Shown piece after piece: positions 12,656-62,594 of a stretch of 64,000 nt of DNA. Within the stretch, counting starts at the first letter, position 1; every line of letters begins with the position of its first letter. The notes under the pieces are model-generated. The model was not told where the DNA came from. It was given only the letters and a program-made list of their open reading frames with translations, and ran no database searches. The stretch is from Lepisosteus oculatus (taxonomy: Eukaryota > Chordata > Actinopteri > Semionotiformes > Lepisosteidae), in assembly GCF_040954835.1 (NCBI RefSeq), contig NC_090709.1, positions 40,838,975-40,902,974 on the forward strand. The letters are read 5' to 3'. Made by a program: the position numbers and the translations under genes.

Positions 12656-15395
12656 TGCTATGAACACTGCACTGAGAGAGAGAGGGGTTCATACAGACAC
12701 ACTGACTGGACACTCCAGTACATGAACACTGCACTGAGAGAGAGAGGGGTTCATACAGACACACTGACTGGACACTCCAGTACATGAACACTGCACTGAG
12801 AGAGAGGGGGGTTCATACAGACAGACTGACTGGACACTCCAGTACATGAACACTGCACTGAGAGAGAGAGGGGTTCATACAGACACACTGACTGGACACT
12901 CCAGTACATGAACACTGCACTGAGAGAGAGAGGGGTTCATACAGACGCACTGACTGGACACTCCAGTACATGAACACTGCACTGAGAGAGAGAGGGGTTC
13001 ATACACACACTGACTGGACACTCCAGTACATGAACACTGCACTGAGAGAGAGGGGGGTTCATACAGACACACTGACTGGACACTCCAGGACATGAACACT
13101 GCACTGAGAGAGAGGGGTTCATACAGACACACTGACTGGATACTCCAGGACATGAACACTGCACTGAGAGAGAGAGGGGTTCATACACACACACTGACTG
13201 GACACTCCAGTACATGACCACTGCACTGAGAGAGAGAGGGGTTCATACAGACACACTGACTGGACACTCCAGGACATGAACACTGCACTGAGAGAGAGAG
13301 GGGTTCATACACACACACTGACTGGACACTCCAGTACATGAACACTGCACTGAGAGAGAGAGGGGTTCAGACAGACACACTGACTGGACACTCCAGTACA
13401 TGAACACTGCACTGAGAGAGAGAGGGGTTCACACAGACACACTGACTGGACACTCCAGTACATGAACACTGCACTGAGAGAGAGGGGTTCATACACACAC
13501 ACTGACTGGACACTCCAGTACATGACCACTGCACTGAGAGAGAGAGGGGTTCATACAGACACACTGACTGGACACTCCAGGACATGAACACTGCACTGAG
13601 AGAGAGAGAGGGGTTCATACAGACACACTGACTGGACACTCCAGTACATGAACACTGCACTGAGAGAGAGAGGGGTTCACACAGACACACTGACTGGACA
13701 CTCCAGTACATGAACACTGCACTGAGAGAGAGAGGGGTTCATACACACACACACTGACTGGACACTCCAGTACATGAACACTGCACTGAGAGAGAGAGGG
13801 GTTCATACACACACACTGACTGGACACTCCAGTACATGAACACTGCACTGAGAGAGAGAGGGGTTCATACAGACACACTGACTGGACACTCCAGTACATG
13901 AACACTGCACTGAGAGAGAGAGAGGGGTTCATACAGACACACTGACTGGACACTCCAGTACATGAACACTGCACTGAGAGAGAGAGGGGTTCATACAGAC
14001 ACACTGACTGGACACTCCAGTACATGAACACTGCACTGAGAGAGAGGGGGGTTCACACAGACACACTGACTGGACACTCCAGTACATGAACACTGCACTG
14101 AGAGAGAGAGGGGGGTTCATACAGACACACTGACTGGACACTCCAGGACATGAACACTGCACTGAGAGAGAGAGGGGTTCATACAGACACACTGACTGGA
14201 CACTCCAGGACATGAACACTGCACTGAGAGAGAGAGGGGTTCATACAGACACACTGACTGGACACTCCAGTACATGAACACTGCACTGAGAGAGAGGGGT
14301 TCATACAGACACACTGACTGGACACTCCAGTACATGAACACTGCACTGAGAGAGAGAGGGGTTCATACAGACACACTGACTGGACACTCCAGTACATGAA
14401 CACTGCACTGAGAGAGAGAGGGGTTCATACAGACACACTGACTGGACACTCCAGTACATGAACACTGCACTGAGAGAGAGAGGGGTTCACACAGACACAC
14501 ACTGACTGGACACTCCAGTACATGAACACTGCACTGAGAGAGAGAGGGGTTCATACAGACACACTGACTGGACACTCCAGTACATGAACACTGCACTGAG
14601 AGAGAGAGGGGTTCATACAGACACACTGACTGGACACTCCAGTACATGAACACTGCACTGAGAGAGAGAGGGGTTCATACAGACACACTGACTGGACACT
14701 CCAGTACATGAACACTGCACTGAGAGAGAGAGGGGTTCATACACACACACTGACTGGACACTCCAGGACATGAACACTGCACTGAGAGAGAGAGGGGTTC
14801 ATACACACACTGACTGGACACTCCAGTACATGAACACTGCACTGAGAGAGAGAGGGGTTCATACACACACACTGACTGGACACTCCAGTACATGAACACT
14901 GCACTGAGAGAGAGGGGGGTTCACACAGACACACTGACTGGACACTCCAGTACATGAACACTGCACAGAGAGAGAGAGGGGTTCATACAGACACCCTGAC
15001 TGGACACTCCAGTACATGAACACTGCACTGAGAGAGAGGGGGGTTCATACACACACACTGACTGGACACTCCAGTACATGAACACTGCACTGAGAGAGAG
15101 GGGGGTTCATACACACACACTGACTGGACACTCCAGTACATGAACACTGCACTGAGAGAGAGAGAGGGGTTCACACAGACACACTGACTGGACACTCCAG
15201 TACATGAACACTGCACTGAGAGAGAGAGGGGTTCACACAGACACACTGACTGGACACTCCAGGACATGAACACTGCACTGAGAGAGAGAGGGGTTCACAC
15301 AGACACACTGACTGGACACTCCAGTACATGAACACTGCACTGAGAGAGAGGGGGGTTCATACAGACACACTGACTGGACACTATAGTACATGAAC
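12656..15395. repeat. 62-bp minisatellite, about 44 copies (first of four arrays)
   Basis: Unit GGGGTTCATACAGACACACT, GACTGGACACTCCAGTACAT, GAACACTGCACT and GAGAGAGAGA. Copies vary by AG/CA dinucleotide number and by single bases (GTACATG/GGACATG, CATACAG/CACACAG). Arrays of the same family and same orientation lie at 33855-34465, 43943-45705 and inside gabbr1 intron at 56320-57405. On the - strand each unit reads CCCCTCTCTCTCTCAG, a splice-acceptor-like string. Confidence 0.96.
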
Positions 15396-15594
15396 AGTAC
15401 AGCACATTCTGTTGCTTTCGTTATTGCATCACGGATGATGGGCGGGTCAGGCGTCAGTAGAATCCCACTGTTCTGCAACAGTCCTGTCCCTGTGACTATC
15501 ATGTGTTTGGGGATCTAGGAAGTTGACTGTGGAGGAGAGGCGTCTTGCTGTCTTGGTGAATGGCTTCAGTGGAGCTGTGATCTGCTGTGCTTCG
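15396..15594. other. Short unique spacer
   Basis: Nothing recognised between the 62-bp array and the retroelement fragment. Confidence 0.4.
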
Positions 15595-18958: not shown

Positions 18959-21953
18959 ATGGACGCGCAGAAGAAACAGACACTCGTGGACGCGGAGCGG
19001 GGCGCCGGCGTGCTGGTGATCCGGGAGCGGCCCCGGCGGAGCCGCGCCTGGCCGGCGTGCGCGCTCCTGGCCGTTCTGGCCCTGTGCGCGGCCGGCGCGC
19101 TGCTGTTCGCCTGGTACCACACCAGGGGGCGCCAGGAGGAGGAGGCGGCGGCGGCGAGCGAGGTGAGAACCCCGGGATGCCCCCTCACCCCCGACCCTCC
19201 GACCCTCCGACGGCGCGACACCGTGGGGGTGCTGTACGCCCGGCTCGGGTTCGGGGTCTCGGGTCCGGCGGCGGGCCGGTTCGGAGAGGCTGCGCCGGCC
19301 GGCGGCTCCGCGGCCCCCCCCCCGGCGGCCCGCACTAACCCCGCTGTCTCTCCTCCTCCTTCTCTTGCAGAAGCGGACGGGGAACGAGCTGCGACAGAGA
19401 GGTGAGCCGTCGCGTTCCTCATTCTTCCGGTTCCTCACGCCTTCCCGTGAATTCCCAAACAAAACGCCGGGCGCAAGACGGAGCAGGCTCACGCCCGCCA
19501 CGCGGGGCGGGAGACGCGGGCAGGGCCCCGCAGACGCGTGGTCTCCCCACCCCCACGCCCCCCTCCACCGCCGACGAGTGTGGGAGAGGTCTGACCTGTC
19601 TCTCTCTCTCTCCCTCCAGAGGTGGGAGAAACGGCTCAGATGCTGAAGCAGATCGCGAGCACCAAGAAGGCAGCCATTCATCTCCAAGGTACAGATTCCC
19701 CCATCCCTCGCCTTCTGTCTGATCCACACGCACACACGCGCGCACGAGGGGACGGGAGACACAGCGAAGGAGAGAGGGGGGAGATCACAGAGCATCTCTC
19801 CCTCAGCCGTAAACGCACAACACAGGACAGGAGACACAGCGACAGAGAGAGGGGAGATCACAGAGCGTCTCCCTCAGCCATAAACGCACAACACAGGACA
19901 GGAGACACAGCAACAGAGAGAGGGGAGATCACAGAGCGTCTCCCTCAGCCATAAACACACACCACAGGACAGGAGACACAGCGACAGAGAGAGGGGAGAT
20001 CACAGAGCATCTCTCCCTCAGCCATAAACGCACAACACAGGACAGGAGACACAGCGACAGAGAGGGGGGAGATCACAGAGCGTCTCTCCCTCAGCCATAA
20101 ACACACACCACAGGACAGGAGACACAGGGACAGAGAGAGGGGAGATCACAGAGCGTCTCTCCCTCGGCCATAAACATACACCACAGGACAGGAGACACAG
20201 CGACAGAGAGAGGGGAGATCACAGAGCGTCTCTCCCTCAGCCATAAACGCACACCACAGGACAGGAGACACAGCGACAGAGAGAGGGGAGATCACAGAGC
20301 GTCTCTCCCTCAGTCACAGACACACGCCTCGGGACGGGAGGGACAGGAGGCACAGTGAGGGAGAGGCCCTGGTCTCAGACTCTCCGAGCTGGGGGGTGGT
20401 TTTGTTCAGAGCCTGCCAGCCGCAGACAGACTCTGAGCGGAAGCCCTACTCAAGTCGAGGAGATAGGGCTGCACGCACGCAGAGATAAAAACGGCAACAG
20501 AGAGCTCCTCTCCCTTCACTGGCTGCTTTTTAAAATGTCTTTGTTCCTCTTTCAAACAACACAAAGCGCTGCACAATGCACACGCGAGTTTACCATCGTG
20601 CACAATCGTGCGTGTGCTATCGTGCACAGGTAGGAATGGGCCGCGCGTGCACAAGTGCGAAATTACTGTCTTGCACTCGCGTTGAGTGTGCTGGGGTCCG
20701 CCGGGCTGAACACACTATTGTGCACAAGTATACATCGGCTTGGCGCAGGTGTCAGCGTGCACAACTGCACATGTGGTTGTGGTGCATTGGGGTGAATGTG
20801 CGATTGTGCACAAGTGTGATTGTGCTAACTTGTGTGGGACAAGTGTGAGTGCACTCAGTCAGCTTGCTGCACCATGAGGTTCACACTAACTCCTCTCTCT
20901 CAGTTGAGTGGTGAGACACCCTACACACACTCCTCACGAGTTACTAACCCCTCTCTCTCTCAGTTTAAGAAGCGAGGCAGGATACGCACACTACTCACAA
21001 GTTGCTAACCCCTCTCTCTCTCAGTTTAAGAAGCGAGGCACGATACGCACACTACTCACGAGTTACTAACCCCTCTCTCTCTCAGTTTAAGAAGCGAGGC
21101 ACGATACGCACACTCCTCCAGAGTTACTAACTCCTCTCTCTCTCAGTTTAAGAAGCGAGGCACGATACGCACACTACTCACGAGTTACTAACTCCTCTCT
21201 CTCTCTCAGTCTAAGAAGCGAGGCAGGATACACGCACACTACTCACAAGTTACTAACCCCTCTCTCTCTCAGTTTAAGAAGCGAGGCACGATACGCACAC
21301 TACTCACGAGTTACTAACTCCTCTCTCTCTCAGTCTAAGAAGCGAGGCACGATACGCACACTACTCACAAGTTGCTAACTCCTCTCTCTCTCAGTTTAAG
21401 AAGCGAGGCACGATACGCACACTCCTCACAAGTTACTAACCCCTCTCTCTCAGTCTAAGAAGCGAGGCAAGATACACGCACACTCCTCCTGAGTTACTAA
21501 CCCCTCCCTCTCCCCCCGCCCCTCTCAGGAGAGACCAGCGACGACCACAGTGCCCTCCAGTGGCTGATGGACGGCCAGGCCTTCACGCAGGGGGGGCTGA
21601 GCCTGCACCACAACCAGGTGACCGTGCCCCGGTCGGGCCTGTACTTCGTCTACACCCAGGCCTCCTTCCGGGCGGCCTGCGGCCCCGGGTCCGAGGCCCT
21701 GCACCTCTCCCACGGCGTGACGCGCTTCTCCGGCTCCTACCAGGCGCCCCGGCCCCTGCTGAGGGCCGTGCGGACCGTGTGCGGCGGCGGCGGCGGCGGC
21801 GGCGGCGAGGCGGGGCTGCGGTTCAGCGCGCTGTACCAGGGCGCCGTCTTCAGCCTGGAGCAGGGCGACACCCTGAGCACGCACACCTCCCACCTGGAGC
21901 TGCTGGACGACAAGGAGGAGGGGAACGTCTTCTTCGGGGTCTTCGAGCTCTGA
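18959..21953 (+). CDS. tnf: Tumor necrosis factor (TNF-alpha type), four exons
   Basis: Type II membrane cytokine of the TNF superfamily; after shedding it acts as a trimer on TNF receptors. Exons: 18959-19162, 19371-19401, 19620-19688, 21529-21953 (stop TGA), with GT-AG introns of 208, 218 and 1840 bp; 242 aa. Exon 1 gives a basic cytoplasmic tail and one membrane helix (about residues 32-52). Exon 3 ends in KKAAIHLQ, the usual fish lead into the TNF fold. Exon 4 holds the TNF homology domain: LQWLMDGQAFTQGGL, VPRSGLYFVYTQASFR, LYQGAVFSLEQGD and C-terminal FFGVFEL. Cys152 and Cys186 match the TNF-alpha disulfide pair, supporting tnf over lymphotoxin. Odd points: Gly8 run (residues 187-194, (GGC)8) next to Cys186, and intron 3 built of two minisatellites. 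The four-exon layout matches vertebrate TNF. Exact exon 2 and 3 limits are from splice consensus and reading phase. Confidence 0.93.
19745..20330 (+). repeat. Minisatellite in tnf intron 3, about 60-63 bp units, 9 copies
   Basis: Unit ACAGGACAGGAGACACAGCG, ACAGAGAGAGGGGAGATCAC, AGAGCGTCTCTCCCTCAGCC and ATAAACGCACA. Homologous to the array at 6900-7262. Each unit contains TCTCCCTCAG, a weak acceptor-like string on the transcript strand. Confidence 0.92.
20331..20878 (+). other. tnf intron 3, middle part
   Basis: Intronic sequence with diverged GTGCAC/TGTGCACAAG motifs (20575-20840), possibly an old degenerate repeat. No exon signal. Confidence 0.4.
20879..21515 (+). repeat. 61-bp array of acceptor-like units in tnf intron 3
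   Basis: Ten tandem units each carry a branch-point string (mostly TACTAAC), CCCCTCTCTCTCTCAG and then TTTAAGAAGCGAGGCA. AG ends fall at 20903, 20963, 21024, 21085, 21146, 21209, 21272, 21333, 21394 and 21453. The genuine exon 4 acceptor (AG ending 21528) follows the last unit and begins with the same TTACTAACCCCTC. So the unit looks like a tandem copy of the real 3' splice site. See the findings for the reading-frame consequence. Confidence 0.93.
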
Positions 21954-22254
21954 GCGGGAGGGCGGGCGCGGGGGGGGGCTGGAACCAGGAGGAGGAGGAG
22001 AAGAAGAAGAAAAATCCGCTCAGCGAGCGCCCCCTGCTGGGCAGGTCGATAACGAGGCGGCGCCGACGGCCTCTTTGTCTCCGTGAGACATCACCTGTGT
22101 CGCCTGCAGTGACTCCGCGGTTTGTCGGGGGGGGGGCGGGGTGACTGTAGTCACATGACCCGTCTCTCAGGCTGTGCTATGCACAGCGCACAGCAGGGGG
22201 AGCCACTCGAGTGTTGTTTTATATTAAAACAGCCCTCAGCCTGTTCATAATGAT

Positions 22255-22895: not shown

Positions 22896-23009
22896 TTATT
22901 TATTTGCTTATTTATTGCTGATTAGCTCTCAATATTTAAATCTTATTTAATTGTATATATATATATGTGTGCGTAAGATACTGTTGTTAACTTATTTCTG
23001 CGAATTAAA
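22896..23009 (+). promoter_or_regulatory. tnf 3'UTR AU-rich elements and probable poly(A) signal
   Basis: Two nonamers TTATTTATT at 22896-22904 and 22908-22916, followed by TTATTTAATTG at about 22943, are the class of element that makes TNF mRNA unstable. ATTAAA at 23004-23009 is the likely poly(A) signal, giving a 3'UTR of about 1.07 kb that includes two retroelement copies. This is inferred from motif spacing only. Confidence 0.75.
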
Positions 23010-33854: not shown

Positions 33855-34465
33855 TGTGACTGGACACTCCAGTACATGAACACTGCACTGAGAGAGAGAG
33901 AGGGGTTCATACAGACACACTGACTGGACACTCCAGTACATGAACACTGCACTGAGAGAGAGAGGGGTTCATACAGACACCCTGACTGGACACTCCAGGA
34001 CATGAACACTGCACTGAGAGAGAGAGGGGTTCATACAGACACACTGACTGGACACTCCAGTACATGAACACTGCACTGAGAGAGAGAGGGGTTCATACAG
34101 ACACCCTGACTGGACACTCCAGTACATGAACACTGCACTGAGAGAGAGAGGGGTTCATACAGACACCCTGACTGGACACTCCAGTACATGAACACTGCAC
34201 TGAGAGAGAGAGGGGTTCATACAGACACACTGACTGACTGGACACTCCAGGACATGAACACTGCACTGAGAGAGAGAGGGGTTCATACAGACACACTGAC
34301 TGGACACTCCAGTACATGAACACTGCACTGAGAGAGAGAGGGGTTCATACAGACACACTGACTGGACACTCCAGTACATGAACACTGCACTGAGAGAGAG
34401 AGAGAGAGAGGGGTTCATACAGACACCCTGACTGGACACTCCAGTACACGAACACTACACTGACA
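33855..34465. repeat. 62-bp minisatellite, about 10 copies (second array)
   Basis: Same unit and orientation as 12656-15395. It begins about 170 bp after the lta-like poly(A) signal. Confidence 0.96.
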
Positions 34466-34970
34466 GAGTGTGGGCAAGGTGGGAGGTAGGGGGTCTGTAT
34501 TTTCAGTGAACAGCTCACCTCACCACTTTATTTATTCTCCTGAACATCATCACTAGTCATGCCATCCCTCAATTCTAAATGAGGTCAAGTTACGCAGAGA
34601 GTCGGAGCTCTGAATGAGGTCACCTTTGTTAGGGGAAATCCAATTTCTGCTGTCAGAGTGTCAGAGCCTGCAGACAGGAGAAACGGAAGCTATCGAGAGC
34701 TATTTGGGGGGCATTTTCTTGAAATACTGACCAACGGGGCGATCTGAACACCTGCGCTGCAGCTCGACGGCACATCCTTTTTCCTAGTAAGTTCCTGTGG
34801 GTGGCTGAAAACTGCTCTTTAGTTTTTGTTAATATAGTTTTTTTTTAACCTACTGCCTCAGTAATTAGAGCAACTAATAATTCTGCTTTATATTTCTGTC
34901 CCACTGAGTACCACAGCGCGTCTAATTAAACGCAGTGGAATCCGCCATTGCAGTCCAGTGGTAGCAGTGA
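34466..34970. other. Unique spacer, no gene recognised
   Basis: Non-repetitive, AT-rich toward 34800-34900. Nothing recognised. Confidence 0.4.
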
Positions 34971-43942: not shown

Positions 43943-45707
43943 ACATTAACACTGCACTGAGAGAGAGAGGGGTTCATAAAGACACACTGACTGGACACTC
44001 CAGTACATGAACACTGCACTGAGAGAGAGAGGGGTTCATACAGACACACTGACTGGACACTCCAGTACATGAACACTGCACTGAGAGAGAGAGGGGTTCA
44101 TACAGACACACTGACTGGACACTCCAGTACATGAACACTGCACTGAGAGAGAGAGAGGGGTTCACACAGACACACTGACTGGACACTCCAGGACATGAAC
44201 ACTGCACTGAGAGAGAGAGGGGTTCACACAGACACACTGACTGGACACTCCAGTACATGAATACTGCACTGAGAGAGAGGGGGGTTCATACAGACACACT
44301 GACTGGACACTCCAGGACATGAACACTGCACTGAGAGAGAGGGGTTCATAAAGACACACTGACTGGACACTCCAGGACATGAACACTGCACTGAGAGAGA
44401 GAGGGGTTCATACACACACACTGACTGGACACTCCAGTACATGAACACTGCACTGAGAGAGAGAGGGGTTCACACAGACACACTGACTGGACACTCCAGG
44501 ACATGAACACTGCACCGAGAGAGAGAGGGGTTCATACAGACACACTGACTGGACACTCCAGGACATGAACACTGCGCTGAGAGAGAGGGGTTCATAAAGA
44601 CACACTGACTGGACACTCCAGGACATGAACACTGCACTGAGAGAGAGGGGTTCACACAGACACACTGACTGGACACTCCAGGACATGAACACTGCACTGA
44701 GAGAGAGAGGGGTTCATACAGACACACTGACTGGACACTCCAGGACATGAACACTGCGCTGAGAGAGAGAGGGGTTCATACAGACACCCTGACTGGACAC
44801 TCCAGTACATGAACACTGCACTGAGAGAGAGGGGGGTTCATACAGACACACTGACTGGACACTCCAGTACATGAACACTGCACTGAGAGAGAGAGGGGTT
44901 CATACACACACACTGACTGGACACTCCAGGAGATGAACACTGCACTGAGAGAGAGGGGTTCATACAGACACACTGACTGGACACTCCAGGAGATGAACAC
45001 TGCACTGAGAGAGAGAGGGGTTCACACAGACACACTGACTGGATACTCCAGTACATGAACACTGCACTGAGAGAGAGGGGTTCATACAGACACACTGACT
45101 GGACACTCCAGGACATGAACACTGCACTGAGAGAGAGAGGGGTTCATACACACACACTGACTGGACACTCCAGTACATGAACACTGCACTGAGAGAGAGA
45201 GGGGTTCATACAGACACACTGACTGGACACTCCAGTACATGAACACTGCACTGAGAGAGAGAGGGGTTCATACAGACACACTGACTGGACACTCCAGTAC
45301 ATGAACACTGCACTGAGAGAGAGAGGGGTTCATACACACACACACTGACTGGACACTCCAGTACATGAACACTGCACTGAGAGAGAGAGGGGTTCACACA
45401 GACACACTGACTGGACACTCCAGTACATGAACACTGCACTGAGAGAGAGAGGGGTTCACACAGACACACTGACTGGACACTCCAGTACATTAACACTGCA
45501 CTGAGAGAGAGAGGGGTTCATACAGACACACTGACTGGACACTCCAGTACATTAACACTGCACTGAGAGAGAGAGGGGTTCATACAGACACACTGACTGG
45601 ACACTCCAGTACATGAACACTGCACTGAGAGAGAGAGGGGTTCACACAGACACACTGACTGGACACTCCAGTACATGAACACTGCACTGAGAGAGAGAGA
45701 GAGAGAG
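43943..45707. repeat. 62-bp minisatellite, about 28 copies (third array)
   Basis: Same family and orientation as 12656-15395, with more GGACATG and 60-bp (two-base-shorter) variants. Confidence 0.96.

Positions 45708-52524: not shown

Positions 52525-62594
<10,070 letters not shown>

Follow-up and report, generated by a model that had tools for sequence, protein, structure and literature searches.

Structure of the tnf locus

The window, that is, the whole stretch of 64,000 nucleotides that we analysed, carries a four-exon tnf gene of the spotted gar (Lepisosteus oculatus). Its exons lie on the plus strand at 18959..19162 (coding part of exon 1), 19371..19401 (exon 2), 19620..19688 (exon 3) and 21529..21953 (exon 4). 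Exon 4 is the terminal exon and contains the TNF domain and the stop codon. The joined translation comprises 242 amino acids and matches the Pfam TNF domain (PF00229, E 1.1e-26). This translation supports all four exons, and the domain match supports exons 1 and 4. All 242 residues are identical to those of a recorded protein, 'tumor necrosis factor-like [Lepisosteus oculatus]'. The recorded product therefore uses the acceptor at 21528, referred to here as the genuine one. Exon 3 ends at the donor AAG/GTACAG after 304 coding nucleotides, which confirms the phase 1 ending given in the original prediction.

Downstream of the coding region, on the plus strand, two TTATTTATT matches with overlapping ranges mark an AU-rich element at 22896..22916, in the presumed 3'UTR. 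A candidate poly(A) signal, ATTAAA, is found at 23004..23009. Further candidates on this strand are at 22223 and, as AATAAA, from 23539. The Pfam search of the 19 other open reading frames of the window gave no matches, and neither did the Rfam search of the window.

The first minisatellite of intron 3 (19750..20313, plus strand) has a 73-bp unit. Most of its units present a pyrimidine tract and CAG, and the tract is without the CTAAC branch string. A possible cassette exon follows at 20314-20629. It is preceded by an acceptor-like CCCTCAG at 20313, its frame is open, and a strong donor-like site, CAG/GTAGGA, closes it at 20630.

A tandem array of decoy acceptors before exon 4

Ten tandem decoy acceptors are located upstream of exon 4. 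Each consists of a CTAAC branch string, a pyrimidine tract and CAG. On the plus strand, decoys 1 to 10 occupy 20884..20903, 20942..20963, 21003..21024, 21064..21085, 21125..21146, 21186..21209, 21251..21272, 21312..21333, 21373..21394 and 21434..21453, each interval ending on its AG. The genuine exon 4 acceptor (21495..21528, plus strand) closes the array as a partial unit. The branch string is TACTAAC at the genuine site and in seven decoys (2, 4 to 8, and 10), TGCTAAC in decoys 3 and 9, and CACTAAC in decoy 1, a diverged unit.

The decoy array in intron 3 is real and was correctly read in the sequence. Ten units with a branch-point string, a pyrimidine tract and CAG had been described ahead of exon 4, with a branch string that is usually the perfect TACTAAC, and we find both. 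The unit had also been given as 61 bp. The ten-unit array stands, but a constant length of 61 nt does not, because the spacing from AG to AG varies between 59 and 63 nt. The AG of the last decoy and the genuine one are 75 nt apart.

The array called by TRF (20893-21512) ends within the genuine exon 4 acceptor, and the alignment agrees. The tandem repeat thus includes the genuine splice site as its final unit, as in a VNTR overlapping a splice site. A search of the genome with the whole array, by a method that skips very common words, matched only the tnf place. The unit had no match in viral contigs. The array does not present the AG with an immediate donor GT that recursive splicing or a zero-length exon would show: after the AG of the decoys, the sequence continues with TTTAAG, TCTAAG or TTGAGTG. 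Nor is it a NAGNAG or a close tandem acceptor sharing one branch point, given the spacing and the separate CTAAC of each decoy.

Strength of the splice sites

Acceptors and donors were scored with hand-written position matrices. With the acceptor matrix, the decoys reach 9.45-10.86 and the genuine site 9.39; for the acceptor of intron 1 the score is 13.03, and for that of intron 2 it is 12.14. The decoys are complete acceptors, as had been described, and on this scale they equal or exceed the genuine site. The genuine site scores lowest of the eleven; the tract and the AG alone therefore do not account for its preferred use.

The distance from the branch-point A to the AG is 13, 15 or 17 nt at the decoys and 27 nt at the genuine site. 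An AG that lies less than 12-15 nt from its branch point can be skipped (PMC1431707). The decoys are therefore at the edge of the usable distance. The further AGs that would be reached on bypass of a decoy are 19-24 nt on and do not belong to exon 4. The rest of the preference for the genuine site probably comes from the exon context.

The null view attached to the original prediction was that the repeat is simply ignored because the last AG wins. We also expect the repeat to be mostly ignored. However, the order of the AGs is too simple a reason: with a branch point in every decoy, the AG of that decoy would be met first. Bypass of the decoys would depend on their short distance from branch point to AG and on the exon context.

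Regarding the donors, the hand-written matrix gives the exon 3 donor 4.73, versus 9.59 for the donors of exons 1 and 2. By the same matrix, stronger donor-like sites are present within intron 3, at 20630 (8.61) and 20911 (7.59). Inside the array, 20911 is a fair donor beside the diverged decoy 1; of the other 21 GTs, those within the eight best listed reach at most 1.74. Considered as decoy exons, which combine an acceptor and a donor, all units have the acceptor. Fair donors, on this scale, are 20911 by decoy 1 and 20630 outside the array.

Consequences of splicing to a decoy

Joining exon 3 to the decoys gives G+TT TAA in six cases (decoys 2, 3, 4, 5, 7 and 9) and G+TC TAA in three (decoys 6, 8 and 10). 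Decoy 1 reads GTT GAG TGG TGA. The predicted early stop is thus obtained from every decoy, at the second codon in nine of the ten and at the fourth in decoy 1, and the joined translations agree that any of the ten leads to a truncated product without the domain. We tested 189 AGs of intron 3. Only 21528 yields TNF, and 21493 reaches exon 4 out of frame; isoforms of TNF with an in-frame insertion were rejected on this basis.

The genuine branch point, TACTAAC, itself includes a TAA codon (21498-21500) that is in frame with exon 4. Any upstream acceptor used singly cannot give TNF because this codon closes the frame. Selection for an in-phase TAA in the decoys is then unnecessary. When the spacers were shuffled (20000 trials), all ten decoys stopped before exon 4 in 47% of trials, and a stop by codon 2 occurred in 4.8% (p 0.048). 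Moreover, the units are copies, so their in-phase TAA counts as one event and not nine. These three results do not bear out the TAA as a designed feature.

EJC-dependent nonsense-mediated decay (NMD) acts on messages whose stop codon precedes the last exon junction by more than about 50 nt. In the gene model as read, exon 4 is terminal and all ten decoy products have their stop 3' of the last junction. It means that EJC-dependent NMD is not predicted for the decoy messages, contrary to the earlier claim that they would be open to it. Decay by a long-3'UTR route is possible. A search with the 102-aa decoy product found no similar protein on record at E <= 0.001.

Motif content and tests for selection

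We defined a strict motif as NNCTAAC, at least 10 pyrimidines and AG. Counting both strands of the window, it has ten occurrences, and all of them lie in the tnf array. Likewise, the eight occurrences of TACTAAC in the window are all within the array or at the genuine site. Twenty further samples of the same genome (10 kb each, 200 kb) contained no strict motif. A random CT repeat that happens to coincide with an acceptor was rejected on these counts, ten in the array against none elsewhere in the window and the 200 kb. With a looser score, based on the hand-written matrix, 8 of the 44 merged arrays of the window present at least three acceptor-like AGs on one strand, the tnf array included. 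Acceptor-like content is therefore a common by-product of CT-rich repeats here.

The columns that vary across eight tnf units were 2 of 22 in the motif versus 6 of 39 in the rest (Fisher p 0.70). The test left out the diverged first unit, its junction unit and the genuine unit, and one CT was removed by hand in one of the eight units for alignment. The motif columns demonstrate neither constraint nor decay. The original prediction had pointed out that the T/C change spares the TAA. A special meaning of this change is not supported: the motif columns vary no less than the others. CTAAC and AG are kept in all ten decoys. Either homogenisation or selection could suffice to explain this retention, and that of the AG in the AGPAT1 decoys described below.

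A folded RNA was also considered and rejected. The array has no unusual fold, as 20 of 20 shuffles were at least equally stable.

Repeat setting and other arrays in the gar genome

Tandem repeats with a period of at least 10 cover 62% of the window. Three samples adjoining it or within 30 kb have a share of 70, 55 and 80%, and 17 distant samples have 0-20%, about 3% on average. One 62-bp minisatellite family appears in the window at 12660-15396, 33857-34468, 43943-45699 and 56317-57408, and reads ACCCCTCTCTCTCTCAG on the minus strand. The tract and AG on this strand are those of the tnf decoys, and a copy bearing CTAAC is found at G000:C4:2921055. Self-comparison gave 976 short matches outside the tnf array; those among the matches listed mostly pair the CT tract with the 62-bp family on the opposite strand.

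A second acceptor array leads directly into the exon that opens the coding sequence of a gar AGPAT1-like gene, its first coding exon (G000:C14:39118217-39121012). The joined 221 amino acids match AGPAT alpha, for example with 78% over 90% in Polypterus. The array has 51 tracts, made up of 50 decoys and the genuine site, which is the last. The branch string contains CTAA in 36 tracts and CTGA in 14. All 51 tracts are followed by AG and GATGG, so the copied stretch includes the start of the exon with its ATG. The branch-to-AG distance is 17 nt in the five decoys measured versus 19 at the genuine site.

The AGPAT1 and tnf arrays are in the same genome and on the same chromosome, and both consist of tandem acceptors that end in the genuine one. 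They differ in that AGPAT1 has 50 decoys, spaced 54-59 nt apart, with the exon start and ATG copied. In tnf, the stretch after the AG of the unit does not significantly resemble the start of exon 4 (permutation p 0.18). Copying of the exon start is therefore not demonstrated there, unlike in AGPAT1. Thus, tnf is one of at least two gar loci with complete tandem acceptors before an exon confirmed by homology.

A genome scan for three spaced CTAAC-Y6 strings found 62+113 places versus 193+441 for a backward control pattern, so these arrays are not in excess. Among the scan matches listed (of 175), 23 arrays were grouped by eye. One is tnf, and the other 22 were read at their 3' flanks. In FLOT1, an array of CACTAACCCTCTC units without AG ends about 50 nt before the exon (G000:C14:35033400-35034800), which matches flotillin-1 (E 7.1e-10). 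An RPS6KA-like intron (G000:C18:23223900-23225100) is largely made of tandem CTAAC and pyrimidine units without AG, that is, many branch points and one acceptor. Its exon matches RPS6KA5 (E 2.6e-8) and Pkinase_C.

Other places were judged, for exon adjacency or distance, by splice signals and by eye alone; on this basis, one array on C5 and one on C18 also seem to abut an exon. On the minus strand of G000:C5 near 4158000 (C5:4157994), seven tandem CTAAC units precede an exon that likely encodes a coiled coil; CCAG is intact in two of the six decoys and lost from the other four. On the minus strand of G000:C18 near 21444200 (C18:21444217), three decoy acceptors ending in TCAG precede a likely exon of 36 nt (12 aa) with the acceptor CCACAG and the donor GAG/GTGAGT. 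A further array, C2:74937580, ends about 110 nt before a likely exon. The Pfam search of the C5 and C2 exon peptides gave no match.

An automated test for an exon beside the array, which used the hand-written matrix, was positive for 7 of the 22 arrays and for 3 of the 12 controls. This test performed poorly, overlooking RPS6KA and C5, choosing an internal AG in AGPAT1 and admitting doubtful exons (C11, C6 and L054). When homology was required, 3 of 22 (AGPAT1, FLOT1 and RPS6KA-like) remained versus 1 of 12 controls, and the difference is not significant. This control, an array of CAATCCTCTCC at G000:C2:74684200-74684950, abuts an exon with fibronectin type III (FN3) similarity. Arrays at exon borders do recur in the gar genome. 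Nevertheless, acceptors are not demonstrated as preferred seeds of repeats, because the CTAAC-Y6 arrays are outnumbered by those of the control pattern, one of which likewise adjoins an exon.

Interpretation of the array

We interpret the tnf array as a minisatellite that was seeded by the genuine splice acceptor and is mostly ignored by splicing, with a probability of about 70%. Slippage or unequal exchange, in this repeat-dense stretch, would have multiplied the 3' end of intron 3. The anatomy is directly visible and the route is what we infer. The copied stretch would consist of the branch point, the pyrimidine tract, the AG and about 39 nt of filler. Its multiplication would leave ten full copies and the true acceptor as the last, partial one. 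Most tnf transcripts are expected to use this last acceptor, because it alone adjoins the exon and has an ordinary branch distance of 27 nt, versus 13-17 nt at the decoys. Occasional use of a decoy would produce a membrane-anchored stump of 102 to 104 amino acids without the TNF domain. With its stop in the last exon, the stump message should not trigger EJC-dependent NMD, judging from the anatomy and the exon-junction rule.

The array could instead act on the output of the gene. The original prediction proposed an unproductive-splicing rheostat: depending on the number of units, some of the tnf pre-mRNA would be spliced to decoys and end up as messages with a stop, and TNF output would be tuned in this way. 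The decoys are complete acceptors with matrix scores no lower than that of the genuine one, all ten outcomes are null for TNF, and a splice-site VNTR with length-dependent output has a precedent in ABCA7 (PMC5954066). However, the junction rule leaves no NMD route, the in-phase TAA is not needed and counts once, and the truncated product is absent among proteins on record (E <= 0.001). Even in ABCA7, the isoform that uses the repeat unit's own splice site stays at 2 +/- 1%, unchanged by length (PMC5954066). We consider this rheostat unlikely. Intron detention would not require decay of the message: the decoys would bind U2AF and U2 unspliced, in competition with the acceptor of exon 4, and intron 3 would stay in the nucleus until its release, helped by the weak exon 3 donor and the strong internal donors. 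The matrix scores agree with this last point (4.73 versus 8.61 at 20630 and 7.59 at 20911). The anatomy recalls the decoy exons of OGT and others, which are recognised, rarely spliced and promote retention (PMC12017769). Those decoys also require a 5' splice site, and the array has a fair one only at 20911, in the diverged first unit, which makes detention quite improbable.

In a repressor platform, PTB on the CUCUCU tracts of the decoys would silence them and shape the access to the genuine, C-rich tract. The silencer cores described for PTB are UCUU, CUCUCU or related (PMC1940037), and CUCUCU is present in the decoy tracts and absent from the genuine one. Conversely, the intron 2 acceptor also carries a long CU run, so PTB would not single out intron 3, and the window's 62-bp family carries the same tract on the opposite strand. 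A PTB platform thus seems very improbable.

A less probable alternative to the ignored minisatellite that we favour is competition or detention by the tnf decoys. In a broader and doubtful extension, acceptors would seed minisatellites repeatedly in gar (tnf, AGPAT1 and probably more), with 10 to 50 copies. The copy number of such a fast-mutating repeat would set the amount of pre-mRNA spliced to the true exon. Immune as well as housekeeping genes would be tuned in this way, by competition between acceptors or by intron detention, and not through NMD.

Comparison with known systems

A search by title and abstract found no literature on a tandem acceptor minisatellite or on gar tnf splicing; subscription journals were mostly outside its scope, and it is weak evidence of novelty.

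Intron 18 of human ABCA7 contains a polymorphic 25-bp VNTR that includes the donor of exon 18 (PMC5954066). When its length increases, the skipping of exon 19 rises and expression falls, while the donor of the next unit accounts for the 2 +/- 1% mentioned above, independent of length (PMC5954066). As in tnf, the repeat starts at the genuine splice site, each unit carries a signal, and use of the unit's site leads to a frameshift. Unlike in tnf, the repeated element is a donor (GT) and the length effect on exon 19 skipping was measured (PMC5954066); tnf repeats a whole acceptor. The ABCA7 intron 18 VNTR is the nearest known relative of the tnf array.

In human CBS, a 31-bp VNTR reportedly has an effect on splicing. 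It spans the exon-intron boundary (c.1444_1467+7), and another variant of this gene, 844ins68, duplicates an intron/exon junction and creates two competing sites, of which the distal one is strongly favoured (PMC2630376). Both resemble tnf, one by the repeat across a boundary and the other by the duplicated junction with competing sites. They comprise one extra copy or lie on the donor side (PMC2630376), whereas tnf has ten complete acceptors. The decoy exons of retained introns (OGT, SF3B1 and ARGLU1) are also intronic splice sites, and these known ones are recognised and rarely used. They are single, cassette-like exons with both sites (PMC12017769), unlike the tnf decoys, which are acceptors only and in tandem. 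The hTERT VNTRs DR6 and DR8 are, like the tnf array, intronic tandem repeats, and they influence splicing. In contrast to tnf, they are deep intronic and not made of the splice site itself (PMC7352778).

In the literature found, splice-site VNTRs (ABCA7 and CBS) are on the donor side or have one added copy. The gar genome presents complete acceptors, ten in an inflammatory cytokine gene and 50 before AGPAT1, the latter almost identical letter by letter. These two arrays offer a natural test series for how the spliceosome chooses among near-identical 3' splice sites, and they indicate that fast-mutating repeats can grow directly from a splice site.
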